In this document: in pieces, positions 18,383 through 45,722 of the stretch
Numbering within the stretch: position 1 is the stretch's first letter
Layout: each line of letters opens with the position of its first letter
Origin: Streptomyces sp. MUM 2J
GTDB taxonomy: Bacteria > Actinomycetota > Actinomycetes > Streptomycetales > Streptomycetaceae
DNA length: 64,000 bases
NCBI RefSeq assembly: GCF_022414535.1
Contig: NZ_JADWYM010000002.1
Coordinates: forward strand, 1-64,000
Reading direction: 5' to 3'
The notes under the pieces: model-generated
The model's database searches: none
The model's input: only the letters and a program-made list of their open reading frames with translations
What the model was told of the DNA's origin: nothing
Translations under genes and position numbers: made by a program

Positions 18383-18443
18383 GGTGAATGGGCCCCCTTC
18401 TACCGGCAGGAACGTGCCGGACGATCCGTTGTAGGAAGGTGGT

Positions 18444-18455
18444 AGGTGTAGTCCA
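18444..18455 (-). promoter_or_regulatory. Candidate DasR operator (dre) upstream of msiK
   Basis: AGGTGTAGTCCA matches the dre core TGGTCTAGACCA at 9 of 12 positions and is a mosaic of the two dre sites at 38837-38866 in this window. It lies in the msiK upstream region, suitable for GlcNAc-responsive control. Confidence 0.5.
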
Positions 18456-18600: not shown

Positions 18601-18674
18601 GCCTCCTTAGCTCAGCTGGTTAGAGCGCCGCTCTTGTAAAGCGAAGGTCGTCGGTTCGAATCCGACAGGGGGCT
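18601..18674 (+). tRNA. tRNA-Thr(TGT)
   Basis: The 74-nt cloverleaf has acceptor arm GCCTCCT/AGGGGGC, D-arm TAGCTCAGCTGGTTAGAGC, anticodon loop CTTGTAA giving anticodon TGT (Thr, codon ACA), and T-arm GTCGGTTCGAATCCGAC. CCA is not encoded. TACACT at 18564-18569 may be the -10 element. A terminator follows. The gene borders the decayed island, so it may have been the original integration site. Confidence 0.95.
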
Positions 18675-43894: not shown

Positions 43895-44004
43895 CTCGCG
43901 GTTCGGACGACTATCTCAACTGTCCTGGCCTTCGGTTACAGTCTTGAACAACGCTGATGACCATCGCATGTCGGGGGCCACCACGCGTTCACAACCGCAT
44001 ACCG

Positions 44005-44143
44005 CTCATCCAGAGGGGCAGAGGGACACGGCCCGACGAAGCCCCGGCAACCCCCCTGATCACCGGACTCGTTCGCGCGGGGCTCCCGGCCAGGGAAGGT
44101 GCCAATTCCGTCTCACGGCGAGATGCGCCGTGAGGAAGATGAG
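44005..44143 (+). ncRNA. SAM riboswitch (SAM-I/S-box) before the ThrC-like gene
   Basis: The conserved core is present: CTCATCCAGAGGGGCAGAGG (44005-44024) with GACACGGCCCGACGAAGCCC, GGCAACC (44046-44052), and AAGGTGCCAATTCC (44096-44109), with variable P3 and a perfect terminal hairpin (44112-44134). P1 is CTCATC (44005-44010) with GATGAG (44138-44143), which touches the ribosome binding site GAGGAGAAAGG. SAM binding would therefore hide the site and block translation. It lies 20 bases before the ATG at 44164. Confidence 0.9.
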
Positions 44144-44163
44144 GAGAAAGGGCCTCGCCTCAC

Positions 44164-45450
44164 ATGGCTGTGCAGACCGCTGCAACCTCCACCGACTCCA
44201 CCGCCGTCGACCTCGGGCCGGCCGCCGCCCTCTCCTGCCGCGAGTGCGGCCACCGCGTGCCGCTGGGTCCCCTCTTCGCCTGCGAGGAGTGTTTCGGCCC
44301 GCTGGAGATCGCCTACGACTTCTCGTCCTACGGTGCCGACGAGCTGCGCAAGCGGATCGAGGCGGGCCCGGCGAACATCTGGCGCTACGCGCCGCTGCTG
44401 CCCGTCCCCGCGGACGTGGCCGGCAAGCCCAACCTGAACCCGGGCTGGACCCCGCTCGTCAAGGCCGACAACCTGGCCCGCGAGCTGGGCGTGACCGGCG
44501 GGCTGTACGTCAAGGACGACTCCGGCAACCCGACGCACTCCTTCAAGGACCGCGTCGTCGCCCAGGCGCTGGAGGCCGCGCGTGCCTTCGGCTTCACCAC
44601 GCTGTCGTGCTCCTCCACCGGCAACCTCGCCGGCGCCGTGGGCGCCGCGGCGGCCCGCGCCGGGTTCCGCTCCTGCGTCTTCATCCCGCACGACCTGGAG
44701 CAGGGCAAGGTCGTCATGGCCGCCGTCTACGGCGGCGAGCTCGTCGGCATCGAGGGCAACTACGACGACGTCAACCGCTTCTGCAGCGAACTGATCGGCG
44801 ACCCGGCCGGTGAGGGCTGGGGCTTCGTCAACGTCAACCTGCGGCCGTACTACGCCGAGGGCTCCAAGACGCTCGCGTACGAGGTCTGCGAGCAGCTCGG
44901 GTGGCGGCTGCCGGACCAGATCGTCGTCCCCATCGCCTCCGGGTCGCAGCTCACGAAGATCGACAAGGGTCTGCAGGAGCTGATCGCGCTGGGCCTGGTC
45001 GAGGACAGGCCCTACAAGATCTTCGGTGCCCAGGCCGAGGGCTGCTCCCCGGTGTCCACCGCCTTCAAGGCCGGTCACGACGTCGTCCGCCCGCAGAAGC
45101 CCGACACCATCGCCAAGTCGCTGGCCATCGGCAACCCGGCCGACGGCCCCTACGTCCTGGACATCGCGCGCCGCACCGGCGGTGCCGTGGAGGACGTCAC
45201 GGACGAGCAGGTCGTCGACGCCATCAGGCTGCTGGCCCGCACCGAGGGGGTCTTCGCCGAGACCGCGGGCGGTGTGACCGTGGGCGTGACGAGGAAGCTG
45301 ATCGAGAGCGGCGTCCTCGACCCGGAGAAGACCACCGTCGTCCTCAACACCGGCGACGGCCTGAAGACCCTCGACGCGGTGGCCGGTACCGGTCTCACCG
45401 CCACCATCCGCCCGAACCTGGACTCCTTCCGAGAGGCTGGCCTCGCATGA
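44164..45450 (+). CDS. thrC: Threonine-synthase-like PLP enzyme under SAM riboswitch control
   Basis: A 428-residue fold-type II PLP enzyme. The N-terminal zinc ribbon has Cys25, 28, 40 and 43 (CREC and CEEC). PLP-binding Lys128 is in THSFKDR, with SCSSTGNLAGAVGAA for the phosphate of PLP. Annotated as threonine synthase by family. However, it is controlled by a SAM riboswitch and its stop overlaps the start of a MoaD/ThiS-like carrier. S. coelicolor, as I recall, has a separate thrC in a hom-thrC-thrB operon. It may therefore act on O-phosphohomoserine in homocysteine synthesis. The family assignment is firm; the reaction is not. Confidence 0.85.
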   Translation: MAVQTAATSTDSTAVDLGPAAALSCRECGHRVPLGPLFACEECFGPLEIAYDFSSYGADELRKRIEAGPANIWRYAPLLPVPADVAGKPNLNPGWTPLVKADNLARELGVTGGLYVKDDSGNPTHSFKDRVVAQALEAARAFGFTTLSCSSTGNLAGAVGAAAARAGFRSCVFIPHDLEQGKVVMAAVYGGELVGIEGNYDDVNRFCSELIGDPAGEGWGFVNVNLRPYYAEGSKTLAYEVCEQLGWRLPDQIVVPIASGSQLTKIDKGLQELIALGLVEDRPYKIFGAQAEGCSPVSTAFKAGHDVVRPQKPDTIAKSLAIGNPADGPYVLDIARRTGGAVEDVTDEQVVDAIRLLARTEGVFAETAGGVTVGVTRKLIESGVLDPEKTTVVLNTGDGLKTLDAVAGTGLTATIRPNLDSFREAGLA

Positions 45451-45722
45451 GCGTGACCGTCCGCATCCCCACCATCCTGCGCACCTACACCGGAGGCCGG
45501 GCCGAGGTCGCCGCCGACGGCGGGACCCTCGCCGAGGTCATCGCCGACCTGGAGAAGAACCACACCGGGATCTCCGCCCGGGTCCTGGACGACCAGGGCA
45601 AGCTGCGCCGGTTCGTGAACGTGTACGTGAACGACGACGACGTCCGTTTCGAGCAGGGACTGCAGACGCCCACGCCGGAGGGGGCGGGCGTGTCGATCAT
45701 CCCGGCGGTCGCCGGCGGCTGA
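45447..45722 (+). CDS. MoaD/ThiS-like sulfur carrier protein
   Basis: A 91-residue ubiquitin-like protein (VTVRIPTILRTYTGGRAEV, RRFVNVYVNDDDVR, GAGVSIIPAVAGG) ending in Gly-Gly at residues 90-91, the site of thiocarboxylation. ATG 45447 overlaps the ThrC-like stop (ATGA). Relatives carry sulfide as a C-terminal thiocarboxylate for molybdopterin, thiamine or cysteine (CysO) synthesis. Its co-translation with a PLP enzyme suggests it donates sulfur to that enzyme. The mature terminus is already GG, so no protease is required. Confidence 0.9.
   Translation: MSVTVRIPTILRTYTGGRAEVAADGGTLAEVIADLEKNHTGISARVLDDQGKLRRFVNVYVNDDDVRFEQGLQTPTPEGAGVSIIPAVAGG

Follow-up and report, generated by a model that had tools for sequence, protein, structure and literature searches.

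A SAM riboswitch-linked MetM/MetO-type gene pair as a probable thiocarboxylate route to homocysteine in Streptomyces sp. MUM 2J

We analyzed a 64,000-nucleotide stretch of DNA from Streptomyces sp. MUM 2J (hereafter the window), in which a riboswitch and two genes follow one another on the forward strand. The riboswitch is a SAM-I (S-box) aptamer at 44003..44145 (+), matching the full Rfam model RF00162 (positions 1-108) with 78.2 bits against a gathering threshold of 44.4 (E 1.1e-16). It is followed at 44164..45450 (+) by a metM-type gene for a ThrC-like PLP enzyme of 428 residues, which scores 271.8 bits against the thrC model TIGR00260 (NCBIfam cut-off 167.1) and 231.4 bits against Pfam PALP. 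The metO-type gene at 45447..45722 (+) encodes a MoaD/ThiS-like sulfur carrier of 91 residues ending in AVAGG (Pfam ThiS, 59.2 bits). The two genes share an ATGA at 45447..45450 (+): its first three bases are the metO start ATG (45447-45449) and its last three the metM stop TGA (45448-45450). An earlier note on this DNA had described a SAM riboswitch ahead of a threonine-synthase-family gene whose stop overlaps the start of a Gly-Gly-ending carrier, and this arrangement is confirmed in every part.

A family 2 glycosyltransferase gene lies upstream on the opposite strand, and metO is followed by a cold-shock gene and then a GroEL-like gene; with a glycosyltransferase and a cold-shock protein as its neighbors, metM has neither hom nor thrB next to it. 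Inspection of the open reading frames by eye revealed no cysM or JAMM/JAB protease gene beside 45447-45722 and no recognizable moa gene beside metO. Elsewhere in the window, an msiK RNA motif (RF01747, 60 bits) was found at 18388-18447 (-); a tRNA gene (18601-18674) lies about 150 bases away.

RF00162 lies directly upstream of metM in 80 of 80 loci, which are the top-ranking ones among at least 590 candidates. As the best of so many, these loci represent close relatives: their MetM proteins are 82-95% identical to that of the window, and all come from Streptomycetaceae. Across a wider set of 41 metM loci, comprising that of the window and 40 from a sample of the phylum, the riboswitch was recognized at 25, and each of the other 16 has at least 1021 bases of upstream sequence. 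Seven metM-metO pairs (L015, L016, L018, L019, L034, L036 and L037) showed no RF00162 match in ~1.5 kb upstream. At hom-linked thrC genes, no RF00162 match was detected in the 10 scanned of 21 loci, the scan of one of them (L002) covering only 123 bases before hom. The accessible part of PMC12452182 deals with thrC/hom and glycine riboswitches of Bacillota.

Immediately 5' of the metM start, the sequence at 44130..44163 (+) may fold into a hairpin that covers the ribosome-binding region and is a putative expression platform. Judged by eye, this hairpin would compete with the aptamer stems for their 3' strands, and the expected OFF response to SAM does not follow readily from it. Taken whole, 44000-44185 has a minimum-energy fold no better than that of shuffled sequences (z -0.39, 70 of 200 shuffles as good), and the fold of 44130-44185 reaches -20.4 kcal/mol (z -1.85, 8 of 200 shuffles as good).

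The carrier gene is likewise conserved beside metM. Of the 80 top-ranking loci, out of at least 590 candidates, 79 have metO downstream of metM; at the remaining one (L106) the contig stops 76 bases beyond the metM match. The four-base overlap recurs in 21 of these 79 loci, and the remaining gaps measure 13-275 bases. Because the linkage of riboswitch and carrier recurs throughout these best 80 loci, it is not a matter of chance. In the wider set, metO adjoins metM at 29 of the 41 loci, and the 12 without a visible metO include one (L175, genome G013) whose sequence ends 124 bases after metM. None of 20 hom-linked thrC loci has a metO beside it, and hom stands beside thrC in all 20 (L002 being the source of the query). 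The C-terminal Gly-Gly is invariant in all 21 aligned carriers, namely 20 of the 23 metO found and CysO. Against TIGR01687 the window MetO scores 37.9 bits, below the cut-off of 49.5, which amounts to a family-level resemblance to MoaD. The solved proteins closest to it are 4n6e_B and 3dwg_C, which are carriers of the CysO type rather than MoaD.

To place MetM among its relatives, we built a tree of 81 proteins, with 51 MetM-type, 21 hom-linked ThrC and 9 other ThrC-like rows. The MetM-type rows, drawn from 41 loci (including that of the window) of the 54 genomes with MetM and from 10 of the best 80 loci, all form one clade with support of 100/100. The 21 hom-linked ThrC rows form a clade of their own, also at 100/100, and MetM falls outside it; the separation of riboswitch-linked from hom-linked ThrC homologs, which the earlier note had put forward as a check, was thus borne out. 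The joining of long branches among the 9 other ThrC-like rows leaves the closest outgroup of MetM uncertain. Mapped on the tree, the absence of a visible metO needs three changes, only one of which is forced by well-supported branches.

MetM and hom-linked ThrC share a fold, a PLP lysine motif and 52 positions that are conserved alike at 95% or more between the 51 MetM and 21 ThrC rows, whereas 18 positions are conserved at that level but differ. The differing positions include (MetM numbering, MetM/ThrC) N225/S, R227/N, Y230/R, A258/G, S259/N and A321/R; some of these substitutions presumably fall within the site for the substrate phosphate. K128 of the SFKDR motif (codon at 44545..44547, +), presumably the PLP-binding lysine from its role in the family, is kept in at least 95% of the rows of either group. 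Near the N-terminus, a zinc-ribbon-like set of four cysteines (C25, C28, C40 and C43; 44236..44292, +) is invariant in all 22 MetM proteins aligned and, from this pattern, may bind zinc. The motif is missing from the hom-linked ThrC of the same genome, the other ThrC rows having been cut to the matched span. An AlphaFold model of MetM (mean pLDDT 83.4) has threonine synthases as its nearest PDB structures, and the nearest solved sequences are threonine synthases as well. Many of the top structural alignments have an rmsd of ~12 Å, so the placement of domains in the model is unsure; the nearness of the model to threonine synthases would fit an enzyme making homocysteine as well as one making threonine.

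The genome that contains the window (G000) has a second thrC at G000:C37:67458-68444, between genes for homoserine dehydrogenase and a GHMP kinase, in agreement with the earlier note, which mentions another thrC next to hom and thrB in S. coelicolor. A search of the genome with MetM returned this ThrC (38% identical, 167 bits) and then four weak matches of at most 28.4 bits. Markers of other homocysteine routes were sought in the same genome: the best MetX match, at 26.3 bits against a model cut-off of 500, did not rise above noise, and there was no match to a homoserine acyltransferase of the HTS/MetA family or to HcyBio/DUF39. The PF01053 family is represented by three strong matches and a fourth barely over the cut-off. 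One of the strong three exceeds the NCBIfam cut-off for cystathionine gamma-synthase (679 bits against 513), another exceeds that for cystathionine gamma-lyase, and the third is nearest to methionine gamma-lyase but below its cut-off. Because no acyltransferase for acylhomoserine was found, the cystathionine gamma-synthase-like protein is left without a known substrate in this genome; an unrecognized acyltransferase may exist.

Four ThiS-family carriers are encoded in the genome, namely MetO and three others. The carrier on contig C9 is CysO-like, 56% identical to MetO, and ends in GGMV where MetO ends in GG; its locus (L005, 898-2900) also holds a cysM-like gene of the cysteine synthase family, with a JAB-domain protease-like gene near. 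The carrier on C38 sits between genes for ThiG and a DAO-type oxidoreductase and is assigned as ThiS on that ground, and that on C33, of 88 residues, is a MoaD-like member of the ThiS/MoaD family. A MoeZ-like protein of 392 residues with ThiF and rhodanese domains is encoded on G000:C11, and two other ThiF matches exceed the cut-off. Mycobacterial MoeZR sulfurates both MoaD and CysO, as stated in the available part of PMC3227635.

The distribution of MetM was surveyed in 149 genomes of Actinomycetota, taking at least 380 bits as MetM grade (the next match reached 221.7). Matches of this grade occur in 54 genomes. Other routes were detected as MetX in 58, HTS in 19 and HcyBio in 37; a MetX call here means a best match of at least 371 bits, as none attains the model's 500-bit cut-off, control genomes included. 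MetM occurs together with MetX in 13 genomes, with HTS in 3 and with HcyBio in none, and one genome of the window's own genus (G104) carries both MetM and MetX. None of the three other markers is present in 38 of the 54 MetM genomes, compared with 10 of the 95 without MetM; put the other way, such a marker occurs in 16/54 against 85/95 (Fisher p 7e-14, relatedness ignored). This co-occurrence pattern had been named in the earlier note as a check on its proposal and came out in its favor: MetM genomes do not always keep a full conventional pathway, yet 16 of the 54 carry a second-route marker. Ten of the 149 genomes (G021, G027, G033, G034, G044, G057, G078, G083, G113 and G142) have none of MetM, MetX, HTS and HcyBio, and these may be auxotrophs, incomplete genomes or users of a further homocysteine route.

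MetY/HcyS of Wolinella succinogenes makes homocysteine with a protein thiocarboxylate supplying the sulfur, as MetM/MetO would, but uses O-acetylhomoserine and a MetY-type enzyme instead of a ThrC-like enzyme with O-phosphohomoserine. CysM/CysO with Mec+, a mycobacterial system, similarly pairs a PLP enzyme and a dedicated MoaD-like carrier; it differs from MetM/MetO in that the enzyme, as in the C9 locus of this genome, belongs to the cysteine synthase family and has a JAB-domain protease-like gene near. The closest counterpart is found in Streptomyces albulus, which we take to have a sulfur carrier gene beside metM, as here. MetM/MetO of S. albulus was published by Hasebe et al. 2024 (AEM 90:e01247-24, through PMC12172450). 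According to the accessible part of PMC12172450, MetM is a novel homocysteine synthase of Streptomyces with O-phosphohomoserine as its substrate; it prevents methionine auxotrophy, and S. albulus metM has a SAM riboswitch upstream. Genus, ThrC-like enzyme and upstream riboswitch are the same in the two organisms as far as the published description goes, and no difference between the two systems is known. The same part of PMC12172450 reports a cyanobacterial gene, annotated as encoding a sulfur carrier, with 47.25% similarity to S. albulus metO.

We conclude that the window pair, taken as a whole, very probably constitutes a MetM/MetO route to homocysteine (probability roughly 0.94), and we are less sure of the donor step, a thiocarboxylate on MetO, taken alone. 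The candidate thiocarboxylate route of the earlier note, which was read from sequence, is supported by the separate clade, the distribution and the published MetM/MetO; as that system appeared in 2024, the homocysteine proposal appears right but was already known. On this route the MoeZ-like ThiF-rhodanese protein encoded in the genome would probably adenylate the C-terminal glycine of MetO and convert it to the thiocarboxylate. MetM, with its PLP, would then remove the phosphate from O-phosphohomoserine and take sulfur from the MetO thiocarboxylate, giving homocysteine, a chemistry modeled on the published enzyme. Homocysteine would be methylated by methionine synthase, and threonine itself would come from the separate hom-linked ThrC. 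When SAM is plentiful, the riboswitch is expected to turn the metM/metO pair down. Several observations weigh against the MetM/MetO route, namely the presence of MetX in 13 and of HTS in 3 of the 54 MetM genomes, the retention in this genome of the protein that passes the cystathionine gamma-synthase model (679 bits, cut-off 513), and the lack of a recognized riboswitch at 16 and of a visible metO at 12 of the 41 loci, one of the latter ending after 124 bases.

One variant keeps the product but changes the donor, with MetM making homocysteine from O-phosphohomoserine and free sulfide and MetO dispensable or accessory. PLP sulfhydrylases commonly use sulfide, and metO is missing from beside metM at 11 of the 40 loci that extend far enough to show it. 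However, metO adjoins metM in 79 of the best 80 of at least 590 loci, the remaining one being cut by a contig end, a carrier of the MetO type is present elsewhere in all 11 genomes without a linked metO, and the 2024 work on the S. albulus pair reportedly showed thiocarboxylated MetO to be the sulfur donor. We consider this variant unlikely.

That metM encodes a second, SAM-regulated threonine synthase, with the neighboring carrier doing another job, is very improbable. Its product does exceed the cut-off of the TIGR00260 thrC equivalog, threonine synthases are the closest to it among solved sequences and folds, and a cyanobacterial relative, 51.6% identical to its Streptomyces counterpart, had threonine synthase activity in vitro (PMC12172450, in the part available). 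However, the MetM clade stands apart from hom-linked ThrC at 100/100, 18 positions are conserved differently at 95% or more, the riboswitch is found at 80/80 metM loci (the best 80 of at least 590) against 0/10 hom-linked thrC loci, the genome already has a hom-linked thrC, and MetM is distributed in a manner complementary to the other homocysteine routes. On tree, riboswitch and distribution, we rejected a duplicate threonine synthase.

We also rejected, as having next to no probability, a carrier that is simply the MoaD of molybdopterin synthesis with an incidental place beside metM, to which the carrier's family-level likeness to MoaD (TIGR01687) would point, because the genome has three other ThiS-family carriers (on C33, C38 and C9), the metM linkage is conserved and the nearest solved relatives are CysO-type; a role in molybdopterin only, which the earlier note had raised against its own proposal, is accordingly unlikely.

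Of the 11 loci with enough sequence and no adjacent metO, eight belong to one family, f12, and the eight f12 metM loci (L022, L024, L025, L027, L035, L039, L167 and L168) form a single clade at 100/100. The f12 loci have neither an adjoining metO nor a recognized SAM riboswitch. In all 11 genomes without a linked metO (8/8 in f12), a JAB/JAMM-like gene, 29-44% identical to the copy in the window genome, is found close to the best carrier match, and in 6 of the 11 (3/8 in f12) cysM is close by as well, which is the CysO arrangement. Flanks of at most 1.5 kb were searched, so a missing cysM may sit further away. A twelfth genome, G013, has the same carrier set but its metM is at a contig end, and a control genome with metO next to metM (G006) has the CysO set too (L192). 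Weaker carriers occur elsewhere in nine of the 11 genomes (all but G048 and G003), so an unlinked MetO is possible there. We tentatively suggest, while holding it somewhat doubtful, that in lineages without a linked metO the MetM enzyme draws its sulfur from CysO, with a single carrier supplying the synthesis of cysteine and homocysteine alike, and that metO arose, or was lost, as a specialized copy of this shared carrier. A MetM-CysO shared carrier was not found in a literature search that reached Hasebe et al. 2024 through PMC12172450.

MetM still scores as a threonine synthase in its family model, so automatic annotation can hide the route. The presence of MetM in Acidimicrobium ferrooxidans, an actinomycetote, can now be asked about directly. 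The accessible part of Price et al. 2018 (PMC5764234) places this organism among those with a homocysteine route then unknown. The MetM route is widespread, with a match at E 1e-80 or better in 189 of 296 genomes of a class sample and a MetM-grade match in 54 of the 149 genomes of the phylum sample. Together with its carrier, MetM would explain how Streptomyces can synthesize methionine without an acyl-homoserine step, by diverting an intermediate of threonine synthesis.
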